Source: [Clostridium] saccharolyticum WM1 | GTDB lineage: Bacteria; Bacillota; Clostridia; Lachnospirales; Lachnospiraceae | Reading direction: 5' to 3' | NCBI RefSeq assembly: GCF_000144625.1 | Contig: NC_014376.1 | Coordinates: 3,224,001-3,288,000 of the forward strand | Length of the DNA: 64,000 nt | Shown: one piece after another, positions 20,606-34,808 of the stretch | Position numbering within the stretch: position 1 is the stretch's first letter | Layout of the letters: each line of letters starts with the position of its first letter | Notes under the pieces: model-generated | What the model was told of the DNA's origin: nothing | What the model saw: only the letters and a program-made list of their open reading frames with translations | Database searches by the model: none | Position numbers and translations under genes: made by a program

Positions 20606-20644
20606 AAGCAAAAAAGGAGTACGAAGTACCCCTTTTTTGCTTTT
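20606..20644. terminator. Bidirectional rho-independent terminator
   Basis: AAGCAAAAAAGG and CCTTTTTTGCTT pair, extended by GTAC/GTAC around a GAA loop, with T-rich flanks on both sides. It sits between the convergent TIM-barrel gene (ends 20584) and CoA-transferase gene (ends 20661) and can serve both. Confidence 0.88.
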
Positions 20645-20660
20645 ATTTATTAAAACGAAT

Positions 20661-21905
20661 CTAATGTTTCCTTTCATCCTTCCATACGTAAAGGATTCCC
20701 TTCTCCTGAAATCCCCGGATATCCTCCTTGCTGTAGCCCAGACCTTCCAGGATCTCCGGTCCCTGCTCCCCAATCAGGGGGCCGCCCTTGTACTCCGGAA
20801 CGCCCATCTCCTGGAACTTAACCGGCGGTCTCACCAATGTGCGCACATTTCCATTGTCATACTGCATTTTATAGAAGCAGTCATTGGCCCACGCCTGCTC
20901 ATCCTCCAGAATCTCTTCCCAGGACTGGGCCACACTGAATGCAATGTCGTGTTCCTTTAAAACAGGGATCCATTCCTTTGCTGTTTTCTTTTCCATTGCT
21001 TCCATACAGATGTCGTAAACCTCTGTGCCCAGGCCTTTGGCCTGAAGGTTCTGGATGGGGAAGTAATTCTCATTCTCCAGCAGATCCTCTCTTCCCAGGG
21101 CTTTCATGAACTGCTTATAGTAGGTGTTGTAATCCGGCATACAGGTTTGGATGAATCTGTCATCCTTTGTTCTCCAGGCCGCGTTAAAGGGGTTTGCACT
21201 CTCCCTGATGTTAATGGGATATTCTCTTGCGGGGCCGTCATAATTGGCTGCCTGGATCATCATACCCATGTTATAGACAGCCGTTTCAAACAGGCTGGTC
21301 TCCACCTTTTCTCCCTGTCCGGTTTCTTTTGCATGGTATAATGCCGCAAGGATTCCTGCCGCAAGGTTCATTGCCACGTTATGATCTCCCACTCCCGGAA
21401 CCACATTCATGGGAACAGTTCCTTTCTGGCGGAGGGAGTGGAGATAGCCGCCTCTGGCAAAAAACGCCGTAAAGTCAAATCCGGGGAGGTCTTTGTCCGG
21501 GCCGTATTCTCCATATCCGGTCACCATGGCATAAACCAGCTTAGGATATTTTACCTTTAACGTTTCATAGTCCAGTCCAGCCCGTTCCAGAGCCTGGACC
21601 CTCCAGTTGGTAATCAGCACATCCGCATCCTCAAGAAGCTTGAAAAATGCTTCCTTGCCTTCCGGGGCTTTCATATTTAGAGAAATGCACCGCTTATTTC
21701 CATTTTCCAAGTCCCAGGTTGTATTTTCATACATATCCAAAGGCCTTCCTTCCGATGGTGCCGTATGCCTCAGCGGATCTCCCTTGGCAGATTCAATTTT
21801 AATTACATCTGCTCCGCAGTCCGCAAGAAAACGACCTGCGCCTGCAGCCGCGATAAAGGTTGCCAGCTCCACTACCTTAATTCCGTCTAACAGCTTCTTT
21901 CCCAT
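20661..21905 (-). CDS. Family III (CaiB/BaiF) CoA-transferase, HadA/FldA-like
   Basis: 414 residues. The N-terminus (LLDGIKVVELATFIAAAGAG, then ADVIKIESAKGDPLR) and the segment PGFDFTAFFARGGYLHSL, whose Asp is the expected catalytic residue, match 2-hydroxyisocaproate CoA-transferase HadA and aryl CoA-transferase FldA. These move CoA from an acyl-CoA product to the incoming 2-hydroxy acid, saving ATP in steady state. Last gene of the hydroxyacid operon, 13 bp after the EtfA gene. The acyl specificity cannot be read from the sequence. Confidence 0.9.
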   Translation of the reverse strand: MGKKLLDGIKVVELATFIAAAGAGRFLADCGADVIKIESAKGDPLRHTAPSEGRPLDMYENTTWDLENGNKRCISLNMKAPEGKEAFFKLLEDADVLITNWRVQALERAGLDYETLKVKYPKLVYAMVTGYGEYGPDKDLPGFDFTAFFARGGYLHSLRQKGTVPMNVVPGVGDHNVAMNLAAGILAALYHAKETGQGEKVETSLFETAVYNMGMMIQAANYDGPAREYPINIRESANPFNAAWRTKDDRFIQTCMPDYNTYYKQFMKALGREDLLENENYFPIQNLQAKGLGTEVYDICMEAMEKKTAKEWIPVLKEHDIAFSVAQSWEEILEDEQAWANDCFYKMQYDNGNVRTLVRPPVKFQEMGVPEYKGGPLIGEQGPEILEGLGYSKEDIRGFQEKGILYVWKDERKH

Positions 21906-21918
21906 TTCAAATCCCTCC

Positions 21919-23100
21919 TTATTTGTCCAGCGCTTCTATGAGTGCAGGAATCACCTGATAAACATCCCCTACGATGCCGTAATCTGCCACTTCAAAAATC
22001 GGAGCACCAGGATTTTTATTGATGGCTATGATCTGCTCTGAATTCTGCATGCCTGCCACATGCTGAATGGCTCCGGAAATACCGCAGGCAAAATACAGCT
22101 TAGGGCGTACTGTGGTTCCGGTCTGCCCCACCTGATAGGAATGGTCGATCCAGCCTGCGTCTACGGCTGCACGGCTTGCTGCAACCACACCGCCCAGCTT
22201 ATCCGCCAGTTTCTTTAACAATTCAAAGCCTTCCGCCCCGCCAAGGCCCATGCCTCCGGATACAATGATCTCAGCATCCGTCAGGGATACTGCCTCGCCT
22301 GCCTGCTTTACCACCTCAAGAATCCTGGTCCTGATGTCTTCTTTTCCGAAACTCACAGATAGGGGAATGACCTGGCCTTTCCGTCCTTCCTGCCTTTTGG
22401 CTGTTTCCATGACTCCCGGACGTACCGTGGACATCTGCGGCCTGTGGTTTGGACAAACAATGGTTGCCATTAAATTTCCGCCAAAAGCCGGGCGGGTCTG
22501 CTTGATCTTCTTATCCACTTCGTCGATTTCCAGCTTCGTGCAGTCAGCGGTCAGCCCGGTATTGCAGCGGACGGCCAGACAGGGACCTAAGTCACGGCCG
22601 ATGTGGGTGGCTCCCAAAAGGACAATTTCAGGCTTATGGGATTTGATCGCATCATGGATCACAGCCGTATAAGCATCGGTACGATAGGACTTTAGTTCCT
22701 TATGATCTGCCAGGTAGACTTTATCCGCTCCGTACTCAAACAGTTCATTCACTAATCCTTCCACCTGGTTTCCGCATAAAACCGTACAAAGGCTGCATCC
22801 GATCTCATCAGCCAGCTTCCGGCCTTCTCCCAGAAGTTCTTTTACCACGGGCATAAGTGCCCCTTCTCTTTGTTCCGCAAAAACCCATACATCCCGGTAC
22901 TCTGATAAATCAACTGTTTCCTTTTCTTCTTCTGTCTTTTCTATTGCATCGAACGGACATTTTTCCACACAAACACCGCAGCCGGTACAGGCAGTACCGA
23001 TGACGGCCAGTTTATTTTCCATTGTAATCGCATCAAACGGACAGTTCTTAACACAGATGGAACAGCCCCTGCATTTTTCTTTTATTACATTTACAGCCAT
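21919..23100 (-). CDS. etfA: Electron transfer flavoprotein alpha subunit with N-terminal 2[4Fe-4S] ferredoxin domain
   Basis: 393 residues. Residues 1-60 carry two four-cysteine clusters ([16 protein letters not shown] and [16 protein letters not shown]). The rest is EtfA, with the FAD motif region [16 protein letters not shown] and [20 protein letters not shown]. EtfA with such a ferredoxin domain occurs in caffeyl-CoA reductase (CarE) and in bifurcating lactate dehydrogenase. With EtfB and the acyl-CoA dehydrogenase it should reduce an enoyl-CoA with NADH, perhaps while also reducing ferredoxin. 26 bp after etfB. Confidence 0.93.
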
Positions 23101-23126
23101 GTGAACCTTCCTCCTTTTCCTGGGTA

Positions 23127-23912
23127 TTAAAGATAATGCTTCTCTTTCAGTCTTTCTGTCAGCAGATCTGCCATTTGGGTCACTGTTCCGGCAAGCATCT
23201 CTCCCTTTCCCTTGGGAGCAGGGGTAAAGGAACGGAAAACCTGGGTCGGGGAAGCATTTAAACCGCAGTCTTTTGGATCCAGTCCCACATCCTCATGATT
23301 CCATATGGTAACCTTTTTTGCATATGCGTCCATGATACCGCCGATGCTCATGTAACGCGGCTCATTCAATTCCTTTACCGCCGTAAGAAGGCATGGTGTC
23401 TGGACCTCCAGTATTTCATATCCGTTTTCCATCTGCCTTTGTACAATTACCTTTCCTTCGCACAGCTTCACATCCTGAACGTAGGTCACCACCGGGATCC
23501 CAAGCCTCCAGGCCACCTGGGGACCCACCTGGGCCGTATCTCCGTCTATGGCCTGGCGTCCTGCAAAAATAATGTCATAATCTCCGATTTTATCAATGCC
23601 TGCAGCAATGGTGGTAGAGGTAGCGCAGGTATCGGCCCCGCCAAAAGCGCGGTCACTGAGCAGATAAGCCTCATCTGCTCCCATTGCCAGGCATTCCCGC
23701 AGCATATCGTCGGCCTGAGGCGGTCCCATGGTAATAACAGAGACCGTTGTTCCAGGCTTTTCGTCTTTTATTTTCAATGCCTCTTCCAGGGCATTTGCAT
23801 CATCAGGGTTTAAAATGCTGGGAACTCCGTCACGGATCAATGTACCCTTTACCGGATCGATCTTTACTTCATTGGTATCCGGCACCTGTTTCACACAAAC
23901 CAAAATCTTCAT
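23127..23912 (-). CDS. etfB: Electron transfer flavoprotein beta subunit
   Basis: 261 residues, the normal EtfB length. It opens [20 protein letters not shown], followed by the EtfB fingerprint [17 protein letters not shown] and the nucleotide-binding stretch [14 protein letters not shown]. It forms the Etf dimer with the downstream EtfA and accepts electrons from NADH in bifurcating relatives. Located 27 bp after the acyl-CoA dehydrogenase gene, the same order as carC-carD-carE and acdA-etfB-etfA. Confidence 0.94.
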
Positions 23913-23939
23913 TGTCTTATTACTCCTTCCGTGTAGTCA

Positions 23940-25082
23940 TTATTTCTTAAGCAGTTTTCCTGAAATCACAAGCTGCTGGATTTGTGAGGTACCCTCGTAA
24001 ATGGTGAACACACGGCAATCCCTGTACATGCGCTCGATCTTATAATCCTTGATAAATCCGTAACCGCCGTGGATCTGAAGGGCTTTAGAAGCGATTTCGT
24101 TGCATACCTCAGAAGCATAGTACTTTGCCATGGAGGCTTCCATACTGGCAGGCTGATGGGTGTCCATTAAGTAAGCGGTTTTATACACCAACTGTTTAGC
24201 CGCTTCCAGCTTTGTCGCCATATCTGCAATCATAAATGCAATTGCCTGAAAATCCCCGATCCTTTTTCCAAACTGTTTCCTTTCCTTTGCATATTTGATT
24301 GCCTCATCCAACGCCCCCTGGGCAACACCGATGGACTGGGCGGCTACTCCCATCCGGCCGGTATCCAGGGTCTTCATGGCATTGATAAAGCCCATGCCCT
24401 CCTCACCCAGAAGGTTCTCTGCCGGAATCCTTGCGTTATCCATAATGATATCACTGGTAGCGCATCCGATGACACCCATTTTATGCTCCGGCTTTCCACA
24501 GGAAATTCCGGGAGTGTTTTTCATATCCACAATAAAAGCACTGATTCCTTTGGTTCCTTTTGTCATATCCGTTTTGGCATAGATTACCGCATAATCTGCC
24601 AGCGGTGCCATGGTAATAAAGGTCTTTCTTCCATTTAATATGTAAGAATCCCCATCCTTTACAGCAGTGGACTGCATACCGCCTGCATCGGAACCCGCTC
24701 CCGGTTCCGTCAGGGCAAAGCAAAGCTTTTTATTCCCGCTGATCAATGAGGGGAGATAGTTTCGTTTCTGTTCCTCTGTACCGGATAATAACAGAGGTCC
24801 CCCGGAAAGGGAATTGGGAGAGGACACATAAATGCTTGCAACTCCGCTGACTCTTGCTATTTCCTCCATTACCAGCACGTAACAGCGGGCATCACCACCG
24901 GAGCCTCCGTATTCCTTTGGTGTCTTAATGCCGAAAAATCCGGCCTTTCCCATTTTATAAAGAATTTCCTCCGGAAAGGTCCCGCTTTCTTCCACCTCAT
25001 CCAGGATCTCATTGGTCAGTTCTTTCTCCGCAAACTCTCTTGCCAGTTTCCTGACAAGCTCATGCTGTTTCGTAAAATACAT
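23940..25082 (-). CDS. Acyl-CoA dehydrogenase (enoyl-CoA reductase partner of Etf)
   Basis: 380 residues, the standard length of short-chain acyl-CoA dehydrogenases. Motifs: CFALTEPGAGSDAGGMQSTA (FAD contact), ERKQFGKRIGDFQAI and the C-terminal IYEGTSQIQQL with the catalytic base at Glu363. In anaerobes with Etf it works in the reducing direction, turning 2-enoyl-CoA into saturated acyl-CoA. Here the enoyl-CoA would come from the dehydratase encoded upstream. Closest functional models are AcdA of the fld cluster and CarC. Confidence 0.93.
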   Translation of the reverse strand: MYFTKQHELVRKLAREFAEKELTNEILDEVEESGTFPEEILYKMGKAGFFGIKTPKEYGGSGGDARCYVLVMEEIARVSGVASIYVSSPNSLSGGPLLLSGTEEQKRNYLPSLISGNKKLCFALTEPGAGSDAGGMQSTAVKDGDSYILNGRKTFITMAPLADYAVIYAKTDMTKGTKGISAFIVDMKNTPGISCGKPEHKMGVIGCATSDIIMDNARIPAENLLGEEGMGFINAMKTLDTGRMGVAAQSIGVAQGALDEAIKYAKERKQFGKRIGDFQAIAFMIADMATKLEAAKQLVYKTAYLMDTHQPASMEASMAKYYASEVCNEIASKALQIHGGYGFIKDYKIERMYRDCRVFTIYEGTSQIQQLVISGKLLKK

Positions 25083-25094
25083 GTTGTTTCCTCC

Positions 25095-26678
25095 TTAACC
25101 TCTTTTCGCTAACCGTTTCTCGACTTCCTGCCGTAACTCATGGATTATGACCTTGCCATTGTTACTAAAAGGAAATGAGTCAAATCGACAAACATATTTG
25201 GGAACCTTGTAATCCGCCAGATTCTGCCGGACCTGTTCCCTGACCCTTTCTTCCGAAAACTCTGCCCCGGGCTCCATGATGATACAGGCAGCAATTTCCT
25301 CCTGAAGTACCTGGGCAGCCACTCCTACCACCTTCACATCCTTGATTTCCGGAAGATCCAGGATGCAGTTTTCAATTTCCACTGGTGCTATGTTTTCACC
25401 GCCCCGGATGATCAGTTCTTTTTTCCGCCCGGTCATGTAAAGACAGCCATCTTCATCCAGATAACCGCAGTCTCCGGTATGAAGCCAGCCCTCCTCATCC
25501 AGCACCCGTTCCGTTTCTTTTTCTCTGTTGTAATAGCCCTTCATGATGTGATAACCACGTGACTGGATTTCTCCCACCCTGCCGGTCTCTGCTTCGCACT
25601 TTCTTTCATCATCCCAGATCCTTAATTCCGTGTAAGGTATCTTTTTTCCTGCCGTTAATGCCTTTCGGCAAATCGGGTCCCTATAGCCGGTCATGGTAAT
25701 GGCAGGGGAAGACTCGGTCTGCCCGTAGGAAGGCTGCAGATGTTCCATCTTCAGTTCCTTGCAGATATTGATATATTCTGACGGATGGATTGCAGATCCT
25801 GCGATAATTCCGCTGTTTAAGGAGCTTAAATCGTATTCGCTTCTTCTGCTGTTCTTCACCATGGCCAGGAACATGCTGGGAACACCGTTTAAAATGGTGC
25901 AGGAATTTTTTTGTATGTTTTCCATTACTCCAATAGACTTGTAATACTGATTTACATACATTGCTGCTCCGGCATGGACAGCGGACAAAATGCCCGCTGT
26001 GATGCCAAAGCAGTGAAACAAGGGGACGGATAAGCACATGCGGTCACTTTCGTTCCAGTGCAGGGACCGTACCATTTCTGCAGAATTGTTGACCAGGTTC
26101 TCGTGGCTTAACATCACTCCTTTGGGAACGCCGGAGGTACCGGAGGTAAAAAGTATATTGGCGGTATTCTGAAAGGACAGGTTTTGTTCTGCTTCTTTTA
26201 AAAGCCGATTGTCTTCCTCTCTCTTGCCACGCAACTCACATACAGGCAGATGTTCCAGGGAAACGATTCCCTTTAAAAAGCTGCCGGGCCGATCCAGGCC
26301 TGCTTTTGATATGACCGGGGCATAATCTGCATTGCCGCAGCCCTTTCCATAGAATAAATAATCCGCATCTCCTTCTTTTAAAGTCCGGATCAGCTCCTGC
26401 TCCTTATAACACGTATTGATGGGAAGAACAACCGCTCCGGCTTTCATAAAAGCAAAATATGCCATGATCCATTCCGGGCTGTTAATCCCCCACAGTGCCA
26501 CATGTTTCCCCCCTGAAATTCCTTTTCTAATAAAGTCAACTGCCCAAAAATCCGAAATTTCATCCGCCTCTTTCCAGGAATACCTTCTGTCCTCATAACA
26601 GATTCCTGCCGCTTTTGGCGTAAGAGCAGCTCTCTTATGAAGCAGCTCTCCGATTGTTTCTGATAAAAGGCCTGTCAT
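25095..26678 (-). CDS. AMP-dependent acyl-CoA ligase, FldL/CarB-like
   Basis: About 527 residues. The ATG at 26678 is preferred over one at 26684 because AGGAG then lies 7 bases upstream. The AMP-binding signature is LFTSGTSGVPKGVMLSH, followed by YGQTESSP and the hinge region GWLHTGDCGYLDEDGCLYMT; the catalytic lysine is in NNGKVIIHELR near the C-terminus. It would make the first acyl-CoA with ATP to prime the CoA-transferase cycle, as proposed for FldL and CarB. Confidence 0.9.
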   Translation of the reverse strand: MTGLLSETIGELLHKRAALTPKAAGICYEDRRYSWKEADEISDFWAVDFIRKGISGGKHVALWGINSPEWIMAYFAFMKAGAVVLPINTCYKEQELIRTLKEGDADYLFYGKGCGNADYAPVISKAGLDRPGSFLKGIVSLEHLPVCELRGKREEDNRLLKEAEQNLSFQNTANILFTSGTSGVPKGVMLSHENLVNNSAEMVRSLHWNESDRMCLSVPLFHCFGITAGILSAVHAGAAMYVNQYYKSIGVMENIQKNSCTILNGVPSMFLAMVKNSRRSEYDLSSLNSGIIAGSAIHPSEYINICKELKMEHLQPSYGQTESSPAITMTGYRDPICRKALTAGKKIPYTELRIWDDERKCEAETGRVGEIQSRGYHIMKGYYNREKETERVLDEEGWLHTGDCGYLDEDGCLYMTGRKKELIIRGGENIAPVEIENCILDLPEIKDVKVVGVAAQVLQEEIAACIIMEPGAEFSEERVREQVRQNLADYKVPKYVCRFDSFPFSNNGKVIIHELRQEVEKRLAKRG

Positions 26679-26718
26679 ATTCATTCTCCTGCTAACCTCT
26701 GTCCCATGGTTTTTTCAG

Positions 26719-27852
26719 TTATTTCTCTATTTTTCCCATGGCTTCTCCGATCATCCGGATCAGGAACGGAACCAGTACCACGACTATGGTCACATATCCC
26801 AAATATCCATATCCTACCTTTACCAGCGGAAGAAGGCCGAACTGGGCAATCGAAAAGGCAAGAATGGTACACAGCAATGCGCAGATCAGGGTCTTTGCCG
26901 TAGGCTTTCCGTCATTTCTTCTTTCCTCAGGCTTTTCAAGCGCAACCACAACTCTCTGGACCGCTCCGGCGATCATGTTTACCGCCGTTGATACGGCTCC
27001 TAAAATAATGAGTATGGAAATCATGGGATTCATGAAGCCGGCTCCCACGCCTCCTTTGATCAGAGTAATAACAGGAAGTGGATCCTTGGATAATTCCGGA
27101 TTCGTAGCAATCGCCATAATTCCCAAGGTGGAAAGCATGATCAATCCGGAGTTTACGAAAAATCCATAAATCATGCTTTTTCCAGCTTCTTTTTCTGTTT
27201 GAAAGGACTGTGCATGCTGGTATAACAATCCAATGGACGCAAGCTGGAAGGAACCGTAAATAAAGCAGCTCCACAAAGCGGGACCGGCTGGTGCAGGATC
27301 CGCTCCTAAGGTCCTGATATTGCTAACGATATCGCCCCAGCTTACAATAATGTTTGGTATGTACACAATCAAAAGACCGGCTATAATAATAACAGACAGT
27401 GTGGAAGCAGCTTTTCTCACGAAATCAGTTCCGAAAATGGTCACCACAAAGATAAACAAGCCTATGATCAGGGTGCAGGCCATATAGGGGATTCCGGTCA
27501 GGGACTTCATGGTGGAGCCTCCGGTAGCAAATGCAACAGAGGGCGCCAGGCACAGCAATAATATGTATACAATCTCATAAAGGTTGGAAAATATAGGAGC
27601 AAATTTTCCATAGAACTTGTTGTTGAAGGTTCTGTAATCATAGGCATCGTGTATCTTGGCAAACCGAAGTCCGTACCACTGGAACACGGCTCCGATGGCC
27701 TGAGCCAGAATGGGGGTAATAAGCGCCCAGATACCAAATGCAACGAAATACTGGACAAGCTGTGCACCGGAAGCAAACCCTCCGCCAAACTGTGTTGTAA
27801 ACCATACGAATGCAACGCCCACCGCTACCGGCATTTTATTTTTATCGATCAT
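26719..27852 (-). CDS. YkvI-type multi-pass membrane protein, putative transporter
   Basis: 377 residues with about ten membrane segments. The N-terminal half (MPVAVGVAFVWFTTQFGGGF, with a glycine-rich unwound helix GGGFASGAQ) resembles the APC/LeuT-like YkvI family, whose substrates are mostly unknown. It lies between larA and the acyl-CoA ligase in the hydroxyacid operon, so it may import the substrate or export the reduced acid product. A role is inferred from context only. Confidence 0.78.
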   Translation of the reverse strand: MIDKNKMPVAVGVAFVWFTTQFGGGFASGAQLVQYFVAFGIWALITPILAQAIGAVFQWYGLRFAKIHDAYDYRTFNNKFYGKFAPIFSNLYEIVYILLLCLAPSVAFATGGSTMKSLTGIPYMACTLIIGLFIFVVTIFGTDFVRKAASTLSVIIIAGLLIVYIPNIIVSWGDIVSNIRTLGADPAPAGPALWSCFIYGSFQLASIGLLYQHAQSFQTEKEAGKSMIYGFFVNSGLIMLSTLGIMAIATNPELSKDPLPVITLIKGGVGAGFMNPMISILIILGAVSTAVNMIAGAVQRVVVALEKPEERRNDGKPTAKTLICALLCTILAFSIAQFGLLPLVKVGYGYLGYVTIVVVLVPFLIRMIGEAMGKIEK

Positions 27853-27901
27853 GTCTTTCTCCTCCTGTTAAAGCATATCTTTTCTATCGTCGGTTTCTCT
27901 G

Positions 27902-29185
27902 TTAATCCATCATATCTTCTTCATTAAAAGAAATAGGCTCCGGTCCGCTTACATAGGAAATCCCGTCAATATCTTTAATGTCTTCATACAGAGCCTCAGA
28001 AACCTGTATCTGCTCCAGACACAAGGTGTTTTTGATCCGAACAGCTCTGACCTTCTTGTAATCTAAGTTGTGGCAGCACCGGATGCACATGAGAAGTGCT
28101 TCCTTGTCCGTATTGGCATACAGGGGAATAGGACAAGCATCCATAATCCCTGTTGTTAAGACATTGGTCCATGTAACTTCCCAGTCAACCGAATTAAGAC
28201 AGCGGCGAGTCGTTATGTCCGCCGATCCAAGGCCGCATCCGTTGTGGTGTGCCTCTGGAGTAATCCCCCGGATAAACAGCTTTCTCAAATTGAGAGTATC
28301 CCCAAATGTACGTGTGATATTTCTTCCGGTTACATTTGGATCATGGCCGTTCCCGCTGATGTTTTTTCCGATCTCATCAATGATCAGCACATCGATATCA
28401 TTAAACAGGAACTTGGCCAGCTTCTGTTTCGCTGTCTCAAGCAGCCTTGCATCCGTTTCCATAAAGTTGTCTTTATTGCATACCTCAATGCTGCAAATGT
28501 CATCATAGGCATTCTGGACTACTCCGATTCCAAATGCAAAGGGACATTTTTCCAGAAACTTTTCAGCTACCGGAGGAATCAATTCTGCAAAACGGTGAAA
28601 TCCAAAGCTATGAAACATGGAAGCTCCCTTGTGCTTTGCGATACCTATGGCAATCATCTTAGCCAGGCCGCTTTCATGCGCTCCACGAAAATCCGTATGG
28701 GGTTTTACTTTATTTAATATGACAATCCCGTCGGATTCAAAGGCATACTTATCACAATAAAGGGGGATTCCATTCAGTTCGTCATATTGCACCACCTCCA
28801 TGGAAGACCTGATGGGAACTCCCATGTTTTTTTCTGTAATATGATAGCCCTCCAGCATCTCAAGCTGTCCCTCAGCCGTCCCTCCTCCATGGCTGCCCAT
28901 CGAAGGGATGATAAAAGGTTCTGCGCCCCATGTTTTCAGTACCTCGCAGGTGGTACGGATGATGACATCAAGCTGAGGGATTCCCCTGCTTCCAGCGGTT
29001 ATACAGATCCTTTTGCCTTTGTATCCTTCCTTGCCGGGTACCTTCTCAAGCTCTCTTCTCATGGTTGCTTCCACATCATTGACCCTGGCCGGATCATAGC
29101 TTTGACGAACCGTGACCATATTCGGCAGCGTAACCTGTTCAAGTCCCTGTATCGGAACATGTACTTCCGGAAAATTTATATACAT
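27902..29185 (-). CDS. LarA-family nickel-dependent 2-hydroxyacid racemase homologue
   Basis: 427 residues with the LarA N-terminal domain (DUF2088). The expected cofactor and catalytic region is present: MGSHGGGTAEGQLEML (His99), NKVKPHTDFRGAHESGLAKM (His163, His170, Lys176) and IAKHKGA. Family members carry a nickel-pincer cofactor and racemise lactate, malate or other 2-hydroxy acids. In this operon it could convert the S form into the R form needed by 2-hydroxyacyl-CoA dehydratase. No larB, larC or larE cofactor genes are in the window. Lactate racemase itself is only one possibility. Confidence 0.85.
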   Translation of the reverse strand: MYINFPEVHVPIQGLEQVTLPNMVTVRQSYDPARVNDVEATMRRELEKVPGKEGYKGKRICITAGSRGIPQLDVIIRTTCEVLKTWGAEPFIIPSMGSHGGGTAEGQLEMLEGYHITEKNMGVPIRSSMEVVQYDELNGIPLYCDKYAFESDGIVILNKVKPHTDFRGAHESGLAKMIAIGIAKHKGASMFHSFGFHRFAELIPPVAEKFLEKCPFAFGIGVVQNAYDDICSIEVCNKDNFMETDARLLETAKQKLAKFLFNDIDVLIIDEIGKNISGNGHDPNVTGRNITRTFGDTLNLRKLFIRGITPEAHHNGCGLGSADITTRRCLNSVDWEVTWTNVLTTGIMDACPIPLYANTDKEALLMCIRCCHNLDYKKVRAVRIKNTLCLEQIQVSEALYEDIKDIDGISYVSGPEPISFNEEDMMD

Positions 29186-29203
29186 TGCTCTTCTTCCTTT
29201 CTA

Positions 29204-30496
29204 TTAAGCCATACCAAACAGATAAAGCAGCATGATTAAAAATACCAAGGTAATTAAGGGTATAACACACGTTGAGATAAATACCGGAAAGTAGGAACTT
29301 CTATGATCGTTCTCCGTTATATTAAGCACCGTGACTACCAGTCCGTTATGGGGAAGAGAATCCAGACCCAGACTGGCTAATGTGGATACTCTGTGCAATG
29401 CTTCTACGTTTACTCCGAGAGGGATAAAATAATCCTTAATGATCGGCAGGGTAATCCCAAGGCCGCCAGAACCGGATCCGCATGCACCCGCCAGCAAAGT
29501 AACTGCTAATGCAGACGCAATGAGGGGGCTTCCGCCGATTCCTGTAACAGATTTAATTAATATATCAAATGCCGGTGTCACCTGAACCAATGAACCAAAA
29601 CCAACGACTGCAGATGTGCTGAATAAGGAACCAGTACCATCTCTTGTTCCGTCAGCCAAATGCTGCCAGATCTCCTTCCAGGGAATCTGCTTATAATAAA
29701 ACAGCAGACCGGAAACAAAACCTAAAAACAACGCCACTTCCGCTGAATATTTAAATACGTTCAAAGATACAAGCAAAACGATCATCGGCAATAGGGCTAC
29801 CAGAAAGCTGGGAAGCTCTTTTCCCTCTTTTACTTCCAACATGATTCTGTCTTTTTCCGTCATCTCGAAATGCAGCCCCTTCTTCTTACATTTGTCTGCA
29901 TACCAGAGTGTAAACCAGAATACCAATATGGCTTCAAATGCTGCCGCTATAAGGCCGGGGACCAAAGCAGCCGTCGCCGGCGTACCCAGGATTTGAGCCG
30001 GCATAAGATTCTGAATCTGCGGAGTGCCTGGCATCATACAGGAAAAAGTTCCTGCACCTGCGAAATATACCGCCGGAATCAGTGTTCTGGATATATCTCC
30101 TCTTTTAAACATGGATACCATAAGCGGGTACAGGGTAAACATACAGACAAATACGGACACACCGCCGTAAGTCAATACCGCACCGGCAATAATGATGGAC
30201 GGAATAATAAACTTATCCCCCAATTTGTCTACAATTACTTTAGCAATGGCATCTGCGGCACCACTGATATCCGTCAGTTTTCCAAACAGAGAACCTAAAA
30301 TAAAAATAAAGAAAAATTTACCAAAATATCCTGACAGACCCTGGACATAGGTTGTGGTAAAATGCTCTACAGGATTCATTCCTGCTGTGAGTAAAAGGAA
30401 CAAACCGGAAATCACGGCTGCAAAGAAAATCGGAACTTTCTTAAAACATAAAAATATCAACAATGCCAAACTCAAAAGTACCAGAAATATCTGCAT
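29204..30496 (-). CDS. GntP-family permease, putative 2-hydroxyacid transporter
   Basis: 430 residues with about twelve membrane segments. GACGSGSGGLGITLPIIKDY and HRVSTLASLGLDSLPHNG are hallmarks of the gluconate:H+ symporter (GntP) family, which also includes hydroxybutyrate and lactate-type carriers. It follows the dehydratase genes by 14 bp and precedes larA by 18 bp, so it is a good candidate for import of the 2-hydroxy acid. The real substrate is unknown. Confidence 0.88.
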   Translation of the reverse strand: MQIFLVLLSLALLIFLCFKKVPIFFAAVISGLFLLLTAGMNPVEHFTTTYVQGLSGYFGKFFFIFILGSLFGKLTDISGAADAIAKVIVDKLGDKFIIPSIIIAGAVLTYGGVSVFVCMFTLYPLMVSMFKRGDISRTLIPAVYFAGAGTFSCMMPGTPQIQNLMPAQILGTPATAALVPGLIAAAFEAILVFWFTLWYADKCKKKGLHFEMTEKDRIMLEVKEGKELPSFLVALLPMIVLLVSLNVFKYSAEVALFLGFVSGLLFYYKQIPWKEIWQHLADGTRDGTGSLFSTSAVVGFGSLVQVTPAFDILIKSVTGIGGSPLIASALAVTLLAGACGSGSGGLGITLPIIKDYFIPLGVNVEALHRVSTLASLGLDSLPHNGLVVTVLNITENDHRSSYFPVFISTCVIPLITLVFLIMLLYLFGMA

Positions 30497-30510
30497 ATGG
30501 ATTCCCCCTG

Positions 30511-31629
30511 TTAAAGCATATCTTTGAATGCTTCGATCATCGTTCCTGCCTGCTCGTAATTAACCATTTGCCTGTCTACTTCTATCTGGATAATAGGAAT
30601 TCCTGCCTCCCCGCAGGCTCTTTTCACCATAACATAATCAAATTCTTCCGGATCACAGAACTTCGTCAGGAGAACTACCACACCCCTTGCTTTGTATTTT
30701 TTTGCCAGGTCAACGATATAGCCGGCTCTCTTCTTTTCCGGGTCGTACAGAACGGAGCAATGGTCCATACGGGAAAACTTATCTGCAAGTCCGTCCAATG
30801 GTTCCAGCTCCAGATTCACATCCGTACGGTACTGTCTGGATTCATGGGCAACATCATCCCCAACAATCTGCAGTCCGTGTTCATCAAAGATCTTAAGCAG
30901 TCCATCGCTGTCAGCCAGAATTCCGGTGGTAATTACCCTGATTTTGCTTTCGGTTTCCTCTACCTGTGACAAAGCCTCCATGAACTGACAGACAAGAGCC
31001 GTATGTTCTTCCTTTTCCATGAAATAAGCGCTTTTAAAAATATCTCTCCTCTGAACTGCTGTGATGGAGGGGTGCTGTTCCAGAACCTCTGTCAGCTTTC
31101 TCATTGCCTCATTGTGTTCCTTGTAGATTTTATTGGACCGGGCAAGGGAGTCCTGGCTGAATGTCATACCGGTTGCTGCCTCTAAATCTTTTATGATACG
31201 CTCATAGGAAGCTTTTGTAAATTCTTTTCCCGAATCCGGCTTCCGGTTCTGGGGATAAGTCATAGGAATAAAGGGAATGTCCTTTACCGCATATTTCCAG
31301 TTCTGCCCCAGACACTTTAAAGAATCACAAAGGGAAGGAACCACAATGGCTGAGATTCCGCTGTATTCTCCTCTGATCCCAAGTTCCAGAATGCTCTGCA
31401 TGATGGAACAAATAAATCCAGGGAAGTATTTTTTTGATTCCTTCAGTTCTATATCTCCTCCCCATGCTCCCATTGGAACAAGCCCCATGGAATGGATCAG
31501 TTCTTCCGGCGTATAAACAGGGACACAGGCCACAACCTTCTTTCCCTGGGCCAGATAGGAATCCAGCTGTTTTTTTGGTGAACCCGCAATTTCATGAAAT
31601 TTTTCCAGTAATTCATTGAATGCTGCCAT
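30511..31629 (-). CDS. 2-hydroxyacyl-CoA dehydratase, beta-type subunit (HadC/FldC-like)
   Basis: 372 residues, the usual HadC/FldC length. Family features: VACVPVYTPEELIHSMGLVP near residue 33, GFICSIMQSILELG, VVPSLCDSLKCLGQNWK, and KFCDPEEFDYVMVKRACGEAG. The conserved cysteines hold a [4Fe-4S] cluster. With the alpha-type subunit it removes water from (R)-2-hydroxyacyl-CoA by a ketyl-radical mechanism. Its ATG shares one base with the stop of the alpha gene (TGATG), a sign of coupled synthesis of the heterodimer. Confidence 0.93.
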   Translation of the reverse strand: MAAFNELLEKFHEIAGSPKKQLDSYLAQGKKVVACVPVYTPEELIHSMGLVPMGAWGGDIELKESKKYFPGFICSIMQSILELGIRGEYSGISAIVVPSLCDSLKCLGQNWKYAVKDIPFIPMTYPQNRKPDSGKEFTKASYERIIKDLEAATGMTFSQDSLARSNKIYKEHNEAMRKLTEVLEQHPSITAVQRRDIFKSAYFMEKEEHTALVCQFMEALSQVEETESKIRVITTGILADSDGLLKIFDEHGLQIVGDDVAHESRQYRTDVNLELEPLDGLADKFSRMDHCSVLYDPEKKRAGYIVDLAKKYKARGVVVLLTKFCDPEEFDYVMVKRACGEAGIPIIQIEVDRQMVNYEQAGTMIEAFKDML

Positions 31630-32867
31630 CAGTCTTTCCCCCCTTTATTAGATTCCATGATTTCCGTCAATCCCTGAACCCTTGTTTCATACTGCGCCTC
31701 TGAGAAGTTCCTGGGATCTGCCTGATCGCCGTCAAATGAGGTAACCGGTATCCGGCAGTCCTCTCCGATCTGGCGGCTCATCTCATACATGAAGCCGCTC
31801 CAAAGCTTACAGGAACGGTTGGTATGTACCAAAAGTCCTTCCGCATTGGTCTTTTTTACAATGGCTTCCCTTTTATCCCTGGCATGCTCTAAGTTCATGG
31901 CATTGGGTACATTGCAGTAAGCCCGGATAAGACCGTCAAAGTCATCATAAATGAAGCCAAAGGCATCGGCATAAATGGTTGCAACCATGTTGATTCCCCG
32001 GGATTTTAAGCCGGTAGCCGTTGCTCTCAAATGAGGCCAGCAGGCAATTCCCTCAAACATGATTCTGTACTTTTCCTCTGCACGGAAGGTGCTGGTCCCT
32101 TCTTCCACTGCCTTTTTGTATTCCTCCAGCAGGGTTTCAAAGGCTTCGGCCGCTTCCACGGTCCCTCTTGCACAGACGGCAACTGCCATATGATTGAGTA
32201 AGTCAAAGCCGTTAAGGGGGGATGGAGTATATTTGGTATAGGATGTGGCCTCCAGCCATGCCCTGGAAGTCCTGTTTGAGATTTCCATGACCTCCTTGAA
32301 TTTCTCATCGCTCCATTTCTTACCTGTGATTTCTTCCAGCTGCTTCACAGCCGCCAGAAACTGGCTCTTTACATAAGCCACCTGGGCATCTGAAACCTCA
32401 TAGTCAGGATTAAAGGGAATGTCAATGAGAATTAAGGGGATTCCAAGCTCCTTTGAGATATTCTCGTACCATTTGATCATGCAGTTGCAGATGTTGTTGC
32501 AGCAAAGCACGAAGTCCGGCAGGGGCATGTTCTGTTCCGGTGTCTCTCCTACCTTCATATGTGCCAGGCTGATTCTTGCGTAAGCGCAGATATCATTGGA
32601 ATAACCTTCCGCTTCTGAAACTTCACACAGCCGCTGTCCGGCTCCTCTGGCTGCAATGGCTGCCGCCTGATTCTCAGGATAGCACACTTTAATTCCCAGA
32701 GTCTGAAAAATCTCCTGGGGGAAATTGCTGGCACACCAGCCGATTTTTTCTCCCCTGTCCTTTGCCTCCTGAACCTCCTTGTAATGCTTTACCACAATCT
32801 CATTCAGCTTAAATTTGGCTGAATTAGGATCAACGGTAAATTTCGGTTTTGTTTCACCTTCACCCAT
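31629..32867 (-). CDS. 2-hydroxyacyl-CoA dehydratase, alpha-type subunit (HadB/FldB-like)
   Basis: 412 residues. Key features: KIGWCASNFPQEIFQTLGI, the Cys-rich stretch VLCCNNICNCMIKWYENI, and HTNRSCKLWSGFMYEMSRQI near the C-terminus, which match HadB, FldB and lactoyl-CoA dehydratase subunits. It carries the active-site cluster and binds the acyl-CoA substrate. AGGAGG precedes the ATG. 12 bp after the activator gene and coupled to the beta subunit. Confidence 0.93.
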   Translation of the reverse strand: MGEGETKPKFTVDPNSAKFKLNEIVVKHYKEVQEAKDRGEKIGWCASNFPQEIFQTLGIKVCYPENQAAAIAARGAGQRLCEVSEAEGYSNDICAYARISLAHMKVGETPEQNMPLPDFVLCCNNICNCMIKWYENISKELGIPLILIDIPFNPDYEVSDAQVAYVKSQFLAAVKQLEEITGKKWSDEKFKEVMEISNRTSRAWLEATSYTKYTPSPLNGFDLLNHMAVAVCARGTVEAAEAFETLLEEYKKAVEEGTSTFRAEEKYRIMFEGIACWPHLRATATGLKSRGINMVATIYADAFGFIYDDFDGLIRAYCNVPNAMNLEHARDKREAIVKKTNAEGLLVHTNRSCKLWSGFMYEMSRQIGEDCRIPVTSFDGDQADPRNFSEAQYETRVQGLTEIMESNKGGKD

Positions 32868-32879
32868 GAAAAATTCCTC

Positions 32880-33653
32880 CTATAATGATTTATCGTAAGC
32901 GTAAAGCGCTGCACCCAAAGCACCCATGAGCTGGGCCATTGGTGTATAGGTAATTTCAAGTCCCAGCTCCTGCTCCATGGCTTTTCTTACTCCGCCATTT
33001 TTTGCAACGCCTCCGCTCATGCACACTGTTTCTTTCACACCGATCCGCTTGGCCAGAGATGCTACCCTGCTGGCTACTGACTGACAGATACCGGCTACCA
33101 GATCCGGAATCTCAACTCCGTTTGCCAGTTGGGAAATGACCTCGGATTCGGCGAATACCGTACAGGTACTGGATATTTTGACCGTGCTCTTTGAAATGGC
33201 CGCCTGTTTTTCCAGATCCTCAATCCTCAACTGAAGAATTCCTGCCATGACATCTAAAAACCTACCGGTCCCCGCCGCACACTTGTCATTCATCAAAAAT
33301 TCCGCCAGGCGCCCGTCGGCCCCCAGGGAAAGTATCTTTGCATCCTGTCCGCCGATATCAATAATGGTCCTCACTTCCGGCAGAAGGTGATGAACTCCTC
33401 TTGCATGGCAGCTCAGCTCACTCATCTCCCCATCGGCATTTTTTAACAGCTTTCTGCCATACCCGGTGGCATAAACAGAAGTGATCTCCTCCACCTTAAG
33501 GCTTCCTGCCGCAAGCACTGCTTCCATGGCCCGGTCCGGCCCGTCGGTTCCCGTCCCGGCAGCAATCAGGGAAGTGGCAATAATCTCCTGTCCATCCTTC
33601 AGAATAACAGCTTTGGAGGTGGTAGAGCCAATGTCAACTCCTAATGTGAACAT
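32880..33653 (-). CDS. 2-hydroxyacyl-CoA dehydratase activator (HadI/FldI/HgdC-like ATPase)
   Basis: 257 residues from the ATG at 33653, which has AAAGGA 7 bases away; an ATG two codons earlier is too close to the site. It is an ASKHA-fold protein: LGVDIGSTTSKAVILKDG binds ATP phosphates, IIDIGGQDAK is the adenosine-side motif, and the cysteines of MNDKCAAGTGRFL and SSTCTVFAESEV hold one [4Fe-4S] cluster between two subunits. It injects an energised electron into the dehydratase using ATP. First gene of the operon. Confidence 0.95.
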   Translation of the reverse strand: MFTLGVDIGSTTSKAVILKDGQEIIATSLIAAGTGTDGPDRAMEAVLAAGSLKVEEITSVYATGYGRKLLKNADGEMSELSCHARGVHHLLPEVRTIIDIGGQDAKILSLGADGRLAEFLMNDKCAAGTGRFLDVMAGILQLRIEDLEKQAAISKSTVKISSTCTVFAESEVISQLANGVEIPDLVAGICQSVASRVASLAKRIGVKETVCMSGGVAKNGGVRKAMEQELGLEITYTPMAQLMGALGAALYAYDKSL

Positions 33654-33708
33654 GGTCATTTCCTTTCTGATTGTTTAATTTATAACAATCTTTCTGAAAA
33701 AAATATAT

Positions 33709-33763
33709 ATGTATACATGTATACAAGTTAATGGCATGAAAAAAGTGTATCCTTGTATACAAG
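33709..33763. promoter_or_regulatory. Cluster of GntR-type operator palindromes upstream of the hydroxyacid operon
   Basis: Three TGTATACA-type palindromes lie 56-110 bp upstream of the activator start: ATGTATACAT (33709-33718), the overlapping CATGTATACAAG (33716-33727), and the perfect 12-bp CTTGTATACAAG (33752-33763). They fit the GT-N-AC type of FadR/FCD regulators. The GntR gene just upstream is the obvious candidate. I found no confident promoter hexamers beside them. Confidence 0.6.
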
Positions 33764-33914
33764 TTGAAACAAAAAATAAAAGGTCACAAGGTACATTTTT
33801 TCATGCATAGATTATCAAAATTTGTCTAATTTGTCAATGATTTTTTTTAAGTACAAAGCAATACTCCAGCAATATAGGGAAATCGGTCCAGGCATTGTTT
33901 TGCCCCTGTTCCAC

Positions 33915-34016
33915 CTATGCTCGTCTAATTTGTAACAATCTTTTTCCTAATAACAAATAACCGGCCGTATTGGTGCAGACAGCCATAAGACCCCATAGCT
34001 GCAGATTTCCCACCAT
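33915..34016 (-). CDS. Possible small hydrophobic peptide or relic after the GntR gene
   Basis: A 33-codon frame opens at ATG 34016 (AGGA 3 bases upstream) and reads MVGNLQLWGLMAVCTNTAGY, then a basic tail ending QIRRA. The same frame is open back to the GntR stop codon. It has one plausible membrane helix. It could be a short membrane protein or the C-terminal scrap of a lost transporter. The evidence is weak. Confidence 0.25.
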   Translation of the reverse strand: MVGNLQLWGLMAVCTNTAGYLLLGKRLLQIRRA

Positions 34017-34034
34017 TTTCCTAAGCCAGTCCGA

Positions 34035-34733
34035 TTAAATGTTTATGAAAAACTGAGAGTACTTTTCCTTTGCCTTATCTCTGATTTCAGATATGGTTTC
34101 CAGATGATCCGCCATCGCCTGCTGGGCTTTTATAAAATCACCGCCTTTGATTTCATTGACGATCCTCTGGTGCTCGTCGATTAAGTGAGGCATCCTTTTG
34201 CCAAGAGCCACGTCAAAATTCCGCCATCTTGAAATGTGGAGCATTAAATCCTCCAGTAATTTTATAAGATTATACCGTTCCACACTTTCCGCTATGGCCC
34301 GGTGGAATGCCGAATCCAGTTTTTGGAATTCCAGGTCATACCCCTCCACATTCCGGTAAGCTTCCTGCTTTTCCAAATTATCTTCCAATTCTCTTACCAG
34401 TCTTTCAATTTTCTGTTCATCCCTCTGGGACAACAGCTCGTAAAGCTCTTCCTTTTCCACGGCAGTCCTTAAAATCAGCAAATCCCCGATCAGCTTTAAG
34501 TCAATCAGGCTTACATACGTGCCTCTCTGGGGATATACCGTAAGAAGCCCCAGCTGATTGAGCCTTGCAAAAGCATTGCGGATGATGGTTCTTGACACCC
34601 CGTATTCATCTGCCATCTGGTTTTCACTGATTCTGGTACCTGGTTCTAATTCCAGTTTCAAAATTCGTTTTCTAAGATTTAAGAAAACATAATCAGCGGA
34701 AACCGGCTGGCTGTTACTTTTTATATAATCCAT
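34035..34733 (-). CDS. GntR-family (FadR/FCD) regulator of the hydroxyacid operon
   Basis: 232 residues from the ATG at 34733; a TTG at 34748 with AAGGA is an equally good start and adds five residues. The winged helix is ADYVFLNLRKRILKLELEPG with recognition region MADEYGVSRTIIRNAFARL. The FCD effector domain follows, with metal or ligand residues in FHRAIAES, HLIDEHQRIV and MADHLETI. Such proteins sense small carboxylic acids. It is upstream of and co-directional with the dehydratase operon, from its own promoter. Confidence 0.88.
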   Translation of the reverse strand: MDYIKSNSQPVSADYVFLNLRKRILKLELEPGTRISENQMADEYGVSRTIIRNAFARLNQLGLLTVYPQRGTYVSLIDLKLIGDLLILRTAVEKEELYELLSQRDEQKIERLVRELEDNLEKQEAYRNVEGYDLEFQKLDSAFHRAIAESVERYNLIKLLEDLMLHISRWRNFDVALGKRMPHLIDEHQRIVNEIKGGDFIKAQQAMADHLETISEIRDKAKEKYSQFFINI

Positions 34734-34778
34734 ATTCTTTACCTTCAATTCCTATTCCTTGTTTCTTGTTATGAAACG

Positions 34779-34808
34779 ATTATACTCTTGACTACAGTTT
34801 TCTGTCAA
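34779..34808 (-). promoter_or_regulatory. Consensus sigma-A promoter of the GntR/FCD regulator gene
   Basis: On the minus strand TTGACA (34808-34803), an 18-bp spacer and TATAAT (34784-34779) match consensus at every base. The predicted start is near 34772, about 40 nt before the ATG. GATTATACTC overlaps the -10, but there is no TGTATACA site here, so autoregulation is not obvious. Confidence 0.8.

Follow-up and report, generated by a model that had tools for sequence, protein, structure and literature searches.

What does an operon do that joins a 2-hydroxyacyl-coenzyme A (CoA) dehydratase to a homologue of LarA and to a permease, and where does its substrate come from? We address this question for a locus of [Clostridium] saccharolyticum WM1, within a window (the whole stretch of DNA that was analysed, 64,000 nucleotides) that spans positions 3224001-3288000 of a single-contig genome of 4,662,871 bases. 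Eleven open genes follow one another on the minus strand of the window, from 33659 down to 20661, with intergenic gaps of -1 to 49 bp. In order, they encode a HadI-type dehydratase activator, HadB- and HadC-type dehydratase subunits, a GntP-family permease, the LarA homologue, a membrane protein, an AMP-forming acyl-CoA ligase, a CarC-like acyl-CoA dehydrogenase, EtfB, EtfA with a ferredoxin domain and a family III CoA-transferase (Table 1). We take the operon, on balance but with only modest confidence, to specify an anaerobic pathway of 2-hydroxy-acid reduction that is fed by uptake, in which an aryl-lactate, its likeliest substrate, would serve as an electron sink.

A first-pass annotation of this DNA had described a tight eleven-gene operon that imports a free 2-hydroxy acid of either hand, racemises it and reduces it, without a dehydrogenase or an aminotransferase to make the acid. 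The layout was borne out when families were assigned by hmmscan against Pfam and NCBIfam. Likewise, none of the eleven proteins matched a 2-hydroxyacid dehydrogenase or aminotransferase family; the rest of the genome was not searched for these.

GntP and the LarA homologue as a module

The LarA homologue falls into the NCBIfam family 'nickel pincer cofactor-dependent isomerase, group 22' (NF052515). We compared its surroundings with those of related loci (L numbers) in other genomes (G numbers). The GntP gene lies directly upstream of the gene for the LarA homologue in all ten loci examined at an identity of at least 73% (the window and L007-L015), and the position of the pair varies. It stands between HadC and the gene of the YkvI-like membrane protein in the window and L014, between the YkvI-like gene and the ligase in L007 and L011, and between the CoA-transferase and the activator in L015; in L009 it lies downstream of reductase genes and an MFS carrier. 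L008, L010 and L012 have the pair without adjoining cluster genes, and in L013 EtfBA is found about 4 kb upstream. The examined pieces of L008, L009, L010, L012 and L013 contain no dehydratase genes.

The core cluster, together with a GntR homologue, also occurs without the pair, in G358 (L084), G377 (L085) and L126, and no group 22 match was found in the genomes G358 and G377. HadB of at least 70% identity was found in eight genomes: a group 22 gene lies beside it in four (G000, G022, G058 and G155), and the other four (G358, G377, G041 and G308) have no group 22 match. The LarA homologue of G022, G058 and G155 is 55-58% identical and is not accompanied by GntP. Within the genus, the close form of the LarA homologue is confined to the genome of the window (1 of 25), nine others having paralogues of 38-41%; the cluster thus appears to be sporadic. 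Judged by these gene contexts, GntP and the LarA homologue form a module, recognised as such here, whose placement relative to the core cluster varies.

We also considered whether the linkage of had genes and a LarA homologue was gained twice, as L081-L083 fall outside the GntP-linked clade in the tree. This was rejected, since one gain with later losses fits equally. In genomes of family f17 (for example G121, G077 and G212), group 22 is often represented by several paralogues in scattered contexts; the number found reached four per genome, with only four candidates scored in many of these genomes.

A putative operator shared by dehydratase genes and the module

Two copies of a palindrome, CTNGTATACNAG, precede hadI of the window: CTTGTATACAAG is an exact match and CATGTATACAAG has one mismatch. 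Loci were scanned first with TTGTATACAA and then with CTNGTATACNAG, a refined pattern picked after the sites had been seen; expected counts were derived from five first-order Markov copies per locus. That the sites of the window are significant by themselves was rejected, as three sites with up to one mismatch were found against 0.78 expected and 7 of 100 shuffles reached three. The significance of the putative operator is therefore due to the related loci and not to the window alone.

Among these, 14 had loci (242 kb) contain 15 exact copies where 0.2 were expected; without L128, which repeats L007, the count is 13 in 13 loci. Four exact copies lie in the five GntP-LarA loci (79 kb, 0.0 expected), two before GntP and two before an enoyl-CoA hydratase gene, and one in the four car loci, 304 bp before EtfB and hence within the CarC gene. 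By contrast, 32 other loci (587 kb), comprising 13 distant HadB/HadI contexts, 15 distant LarA-homologue contexts and L016-L019, have none, with 0.4 expected. When one mismatch was allowed, the counts (expected numbers in parentheses) were 31 (3.4) in the had loci, 9 (1.2) in the GntP-LarA loci, 4 (0.6) in the car loci and 10 (7.6) in the others. Exact sites precede hadI or hadB in L007, L011, L084, L085 and L126, the ligase gene in L007, L011, L084 and L085, and an MFS gene in L087; searching for CTNGTATACNAG gave no site in L081-L083, L086, L130 and L015.

Upstream of the GntP-LarA pair, the site is exact in L008 and L010 and differs from the palindrome at one position in L012 and L013; the expectation is 0.006 such sites per 400 bp. 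Because L008 is related to L010 and L012 to L013, these loci represent two lineages rather than four. In them the pair stands apart from dehydratase genes and yet has their operator, and no other finding argues as strongly that the substrate of the pathway is handled by permease and isomerase; the common putative operator supports the view that both would serve the dehydratase pathway.

Two further observations concern neighbouring genes. At position 349 of L008 and 5629 of L010, an exact copy precedes the enoyl-CoA hydratase gene, which is followed by a gene of 151 amino acids, upstream of the GntP-LarA pair. At 4316 of L084, a one-mismatch operator-like site is located 69 bp before a phosphotransacetylase/acetate kinase pair that adjoins the core cluster.

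The reductase resembles caffeyl-CoA reductase

The nearest solved homologues of the acyl-CoA dehydrogenase and of EtfA are CarC and CarE of the caffeyl-CoA reductase CarCDE from Acetobacterium woodii (6FAH). The acyl-CoA dehydrogenase scored 637.1 bits with CarC and 409.3 with the runner-up chain in the PDB; EtfA, which is fused to a ferredoxin domain, aligned with CarE along its entire length (617.7 bits, against 349.6 for the runner-up). In global alignments, the acyl-CoA dehydrogenase was 77.0% identical to A. woodii CarC and 52.4% identical to the butyryl-CoA dehydrogenase Bcd of C. difficile. The three NCBIfam equivalogs of acryloyl-CoA reductase, AcrCBA, all stayed below their cut-offs (451.7 against 640, 320 against 475 and 443.6 against 600 bits). 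According to the available text of PMC5861303, CarCDE ties the NADH-dependent reduction of caffeyl-CoA to the reduction of ferredoxin; an rnfC gene is present in the genome (531.3 bits).

At E 1e-185, CarC-type matches were obtained in 7 of the 299 genomes of the family, at nine loci, all of which were inspected. Six adjoin genes of the dehydratase pathway: the window, G358, two loci in G545, contig 35 of G619 (the same DNA as L007) and G591. The second of the G545 loci has an activator and no dehydratase subunits of its own. The remaining three, on contig 82 of G619 (a 6.9 kb piece), G617 and G041, are car-only loci: CarC, EtfB and EtfA are accompanied by a ligase and a family I CoA-transferase, in the layout of carABCDE, and the examined pieces contain no dehydratase genes. 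Their ligase, upstream of CarC, is homologous to that of the window (38-44%). In a tree, the CarC-type proteins of had-linked and car-only loci intermix (10 of the 21 inner branches were drawn open).

We therefore prefer aryl-lactates over a conversion of lactate to propionate, judging from the type of enzyme: the reductase is CarCDE-like and missed the acryloyl-CoA reductase cut-offs. Of the substrates proposed in the first pass, this favours the phenyllactate type and disfavours lactate, which had been placed first.

Two side observations were made on reductase genes. G545 (L126 and L127) has two adjacent clusters with two CarC-type reductases, 84% and 77% identical to that of the window. 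L113 (9748-14605) has a distant LarA homologue (37%) beside an acyl-CoA dehydrogenase, EtfB and EtfA of another type, a second link between LarA homologues and acyl-CoA reduction.

The LarA homologue and its cofactor supply

The assignment of the LarA homologue rests on NF052515, whose cut-off was passed; with Pfam Lar_N the protein scored 18.3 to 20.4 bits and so fell short of the cut-off of 23.3, and PF09861 is precomputed for many among the 120 relatives listed for it. The first-pass designation as a LarA-family racemase homologue is thus upheld by NCBIfam and not by Pfam, and racemase activity is a prediction from homology. Neither phmmer nor a profile search of the PDB returned a LarA structure among its matches.

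Section 8 of PMC7583248 and section 6 of PMC11770544 assign roles in catalysis or in binding of the nickel-pincer cofactor (NPN) to R75, H108, H174, K184, H200 and K298 of LarA; the numbering was tied to PDB chains. Through an hhalign match to the N-terminal half, itself weak, the first five correspond to R67, H99, H163, K176 and H192 of the LarA homologue. These are kept in 119-120 of 120 rows, the rows being the protein of the window and 119 of its 120 listed relatives, with one shorter match left out. The first-pass annotation had named residues incompatible with the cofactor as grounds for refutation, and these five do not refute it. K274 is also invariant in the alignment and is no more than a candidate counterpart of K298.

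The earlier reading had been tied in advance to the occurrence of larB-, larC- and larE-type genes in the genome, and all are there, in one run 23.7 kb past the window. Every model exceeded its cut-off (in parentheses): 295.7 bits for LarB (175), 208.4 for LarC1 (90), 146.2 for LarC2 (50) and 270.2 for LarE (150). The run adjoins ABC-transporter genes of the Nik/Opp type, for which no transporter model reaches its cut-off. In LarC (L006, 4524-5903), the two halves are joined in a single protein, and a long stretch rich in His and Asp lies ahead of the LarC1 domain.

The sole match to PF09861 at E 0.001 in this genome is the group 22 protein; in the genus, over-cut-off matches were found in 22 of 25 genomes, with at least 220 bits in 17. 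As no other LarA-family match was found in the genome of the window, the simplest reading is that the group 22 protein would be the client of larBCE here. Group 22 matches were obtained in 34 of the 392 genomes of the order, and in 30 genomes they passed the cut-off. LarC is present in 25 of these 30 carriers (weakly in G037) and in 185 of the 362 other genomes, which include the four below-cut-off carriers (Fisher p 4e-4, kinship ignored).

Other genes and signals of the operon

Two PF06050 subunits and a TIGR00241 activator place the remaining core enzyme among the 2-hydroxyacyl-CoA dehydratases. The best solved relative of the HadB-type subunit is chain A of 3O3M, a 2-hydroxyisocaproyl-CoA dehydratase (410.9 bits), and the cut-offs of the HadB and HadC equivalogs were missed (NF052455, 515.4 against 750 bits; NF052456, 423.5 against 700 bits). 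The genome has three PF06050 matches, two in the operon and a third elsewhere that scores higher (392.3 bits). Compared with L007 and L011, HadB of the window is 92% identical, HadC only 71-72% and the ligase 53%; two subunits that belong to the same enzyme have thus diverged to different degrees, perhaps through gene exchange. The HadB relatives P0193, P0195, P0197 and P0215 (75-77% identity) carry names of Acetobacterium; caffeate respiration was described from this genus.

The ligase had no match in the PDB at E 1e-60. The CoA-transferase, called HadA-type in the first pass, is of family III, and no HadA or FldA model matched it; the name 'YkvI-type' for the membrane protein found no backing, as neither Pfam nor NCBIfam has a match for it. 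A homologue of the YkvI-like gene is present in core clusters both with and without the LarA homologue.

A gene for a GntR/FCD regulator lies upstream of the operon, and its homologue also adjoins the core cluster in L007, L011, L014, L084, L085 and L126. It is preceded by a perfect TTGACA-18-TATAAT at 34808-34779, where the first-pass annotation had also ended the locus. Promoter-like sites between 20400 and 35300 numbered 19 against 21.2 expected from shuffles and thus show no excess, so we mention only the perfect -35/-10 pair before GntR. Downstream of the last gene, a hairpin (20642-20606; -22.9 kcal/mol, z -6.6, with 0 of 200 shuffles equally good) was found by eye and is missing from the output of the terminator scan. 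An Rfam scan of the window yielded zero matches at gathering scores.

Table 1 Features of the operon and its surroundings (window coordinates unless stated otherwise)
Feature	Position	Strand	Support
Probable intrinsic terminator hairpin of the operon	20606..20642	-	3' of the last gene; found by eye in the sequence
Family III CoA-transferase	20661..21905	-	PF02515 287.8 bits
EtfA with N-terminal ferredoxin domain, CarE-like	21919..23100	-	Fer4 matches within the first 60 residues
EtfB, CarD-like by position	23127..23912	-	NF040731 492.3 bits (cut-off 445); the PDB comparison covered the CarC- and CarE-like proteins
Acyl-CoA dehydrogenase, caffeyl-CoA reductase type (CarC-like)	23940..25082	-	6FAH CarC 637.1 bits
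AMP-forming acyl-CoA ligase, CarB-like position, putative primer of the CoA cycle	25095..26684	-	PF00501 242.4 bits
Membrane protein ('YkvI-type' in the first pass), putative second carrier	26719..27852	-	No Pfam or NCBIfam match
LarA homologue, NPN-dependent isomerase group 22, putative 2-hydroxy-acid racemase	27902..29185	-	NF052515 498.1 bits (cut-off 400)
GntP-family permease, putative hydroxy-acid importer, partner of the LarA homologue	29204..30496	-	PF02447 70.4 bits, first 244 residues
HadC-type 2-hydroxyacyl-CoA dehydratase subunit	30511..31629	-	PF06050 276.8 bits
HadB-type 2-hydroxyacyl-CoA dehydratase subunit	31629..32867	-	PF06050 248.9 bits
HadI-type dehydratase activator	32880..33659	-	TIGR00241 259.9 bits (cut-off 125.4); PF01869 205.7 bits
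Putative operator, copy 2, CATGTATACAAG	33716..33727		One mismatch to CTNGTATACNAG
Putative operator, copy 1, CTTGTATACAAG	33752..33763		Exact match to CTNGTATACNAG
GntR/FCD regulator, probable operon regulator	34035..34748	-	PF00392 59.5 bits, PF07729 53.3 bits
LarE, LarC and LarB genes	Genome 3311693-3314647, 23.7 kb past the window		One run; cut-offs passed

Comparison with known systems

The fld cluster of C. sporogenes has an activator, Etf genes and, in FldA, a family III CoA-transferase. In the available text of PMC7574542 (for FldABC, also PMC9889317), the fld pathway converts amino acids to arylpropionates via FldH, FldABC and AcdA; dehydratase, CoA-transferase and acyl-CoA dehydrogenase are thus common to both, and the same chemistry is expected. 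The operon of the window differs in that it has no hydroxyacid dehydrogenase and has the LarA homologue, GntP and a ligase, which would suit the uptake of a free hydroxy acid rather than an amino-acid start; this is a comparison of gene content, Fld sequences not having been compared. The had system of Clostridioides difficile, which acts on 2-hydroxyisocaproate, has a dehydratase of the same family (3O3M), but the subunits of the window lie under the HadB/HadC equivalog cut-offs and its reductase is CarC-type. With the car operon of A. woodii (caffeate respiration), the window shares its reductase type, the ferredoxin domain of CarE and an AMP-forming ligase before CarC; it differs by the added dehydratase and isomerase, and by its family III CoA-transferase, where three related car-only loci have family I.

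As far as the available text of PMC8914356 describes it, the lap cluster of Coprococcus catus likewise brings together a permease, a CoA-transferase, a dehydratase and a presumed stereo-inverting enzyme. The latter, a homologue of methylmalonyl-CoA epimerase, presumably works on the CoA ester, and the permease is for lactate; in the operon of the window, the corresponding places are taken by an NPN isomerase that presumably works on the free acid and by GntP, and neither a lactoyl-CoA epimerase homologue nor a lactate permease is among the eleven operon genes. Group 22 itself is joined to the window protein by the NF052515 score and five kept NPN residues, but the protein is remote from LarA. 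In the open-licence literature, we found no paper that joins a LarA homologue or racemase with a 2-hydroxyacyl- or phenyllactyl-CoA dehydratase, although the supplementary gene-context tables of PMC7583248 may list the linkage, and none that joins caffeyl-CoA reductase with 2-hydroxyacyl-CoA dehydratase. The parts are known and the combination is unusual: a nickel-dependent answer to the stereochemical problem of lap, joined to a caffeate-type reductase.

Discussion

Could the same pathway reduce an aliphatic or branched acid, such as 2-hydroxyisocaproate, 2-hydroxyisovalerate or 2-hydroxybutyrate, to a fatty acid? The dehydratase points that way, as its closest solved relative is 3O3M and HadB and HadC are the best NCBIfam models for its subunits; moreover, the assayed hydrophobic LarA homologues in the available text of PMC11770544 accept aliphatic 2-hydroxy acids too. 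We nevertheless regard such a substrate as unlikely, because the two equivalog cut-offs were missed by far and the reductase is CarC-like, at 77% against 52% for Bcd.

GntP carriers act on gluconate-type acids, and group 22 is found in many other contexts. Together with GntE, a LarA homologue that acts on a gluconate-type acid (PMC7583248, in its available text), this raises the alternative that the pair acts on a different compound, such as a sugar acid, and has no more than the transcript in common with the dehydratase genes. We give it little credence: the operator precedes the pair in L008, L010, L012 and L013, on pieces that contain no dehydratase genes, the pair is found at varying places with respect to one and the same core cluster, and no sugar-acid gene is among the operon families.

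An acrylate-type pathway from D- or L-lactate to propionate, the first candidate of the earlier annotation, has a precedent in the lap cluster (PMC8914356, as above), and the MFS protein of L009 resembles the L-lactate transporter model, below its cut-off (240.2 against 320 bits). It seems very improbable for this operon, as the three acryloyl-CoA reductase equivalogs stayed below their cut-offs whereas CarC and CarE gave 637 and 618 bits, and as the CoA-transferase is of family III and the permease is GntP. That the pathway starts from an amino acid, with dehydrogenase and aminotransferase elsewhere in the genome and the isomerase only correcting stereochemistry, we consider hardly credible either: the aminotransferase gene CLOSPO_1732 of C. 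sporogenes is, by locus number, not beside fldC CLOSPO_311 (PMC7574542, in its available text), and our search was confined to the operon and cluster neighbours rather than the whole genome, but the permease is bound to the isomerase, and neither the operon nor 13 Pfam-checked neighbours in L081, L084, L086 and L087 (three without a Pfam match, one a glycerol-3-phosphate dehydrogenase) include a 2-hydroxyacid dehydrogenase.

Several observations weigh against the uptake-fed aryl-lactate pathway that we prefer, or against the place of the isomerase in it. The homology to LarA is remote: hhalign against eight LarA-family proteins from genomes of the family gave a probability of 34% (E 4e-4), and K298 has no mapped counterpart, since the C-terminal half could not be reliably aligned by global or full-length hhalign alignment. 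No assayed member of group 22 was found in the literature examined, including Table 1 of PMC7583248, on the assumption that the NCBI group number 22 follows the numbering of that paper; PMC11770544 assays, in its available text, nine proteins without these group numbers, one of which might belong to group 22. Of the 30 group 22 carriers over the cut-off, five (G115, G282, G305, G311 and G315) have no LarC match; with a completeness of at least 90% in G115 and G305, this is true counter-evidence as regards group 22 in general. In these two genomes, the cofactor may be scavenged, genes may have been missed, or the isomerases may form a subgroup that does without NPN. The core cluster without a LarA homologue in G358 and G377 implies that racemisation is not essential to the core, and L081-L083 have a LarA homologue (55-58%) in the same cluster type without operator or GntP. 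In L008, L010, L012 and L013 the site is flanked by GntP on one side and by a divergent gene on the other (no Pfam match in the three copies tested), and the operator could act on the latter instead; L009 has no CTNGTATACNAG site before GntP, and the one site of L014, which precedes hadI, has a mismatch. Finally, similarity to CarC is no proof of an aryl substrate.

The uptake-fed pathway may nonetheless be drawn as follows, with reactions, substrate and direction that we infer from protein families. GntP, and perhaps also the YkvI-like protein, would import the free 2-hydroxy acid, and the group 22 isomerase, for which cofactor genes and conserved residues are present, would interconvert its S and R forms. 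The ligase would make the first CoA ester, after which the family III CoA-transferase could pass CoA from product to new substrate. HadI, HadB and HadC are predicted to dehydrate the R-2-hydroxyacyl-CoA to 2-enoyl-CoA by radical chemistry, and the CarCDE-type bifurcating complex, given its 77% CarC identity, would reduce the enoyl-CoA with NADH while also reducing ferredoxin, which Rnf might use for energy gain. Phenyllactate, 4-hydroxy- or 3,4-dihydroxyphenyllactate and indolelactate are the likely substrates, each to be converted to its arylpropionate. The first-pass scheme of import, racemisation and reduction has thereby gained cofactor genes, residues and a shared operator, while its substrate list has changed and its racemase step is still a prediction.

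More tentatively, and as a suggestion on which we would put somewhat less than even weight, GntP and the group 22 isomerase may constitute a mobile 'either-hand' module that clostridia plug into a core of dehydratase and caffeyl-CoA reductase under one operator, so that aryl-lactates of both hands, produced by other microbes or by plants, could become electron acceptors coupled to bifurcation. If this is true, a little-studied group of nickel enzymes would acquire a function, and arylpropionates could come from free aryl-lactates of either hand and not only from amino acids. Two known electron sinks, the fld-type dehydratase and caffeate respiration, would then be united in one regulated operon.

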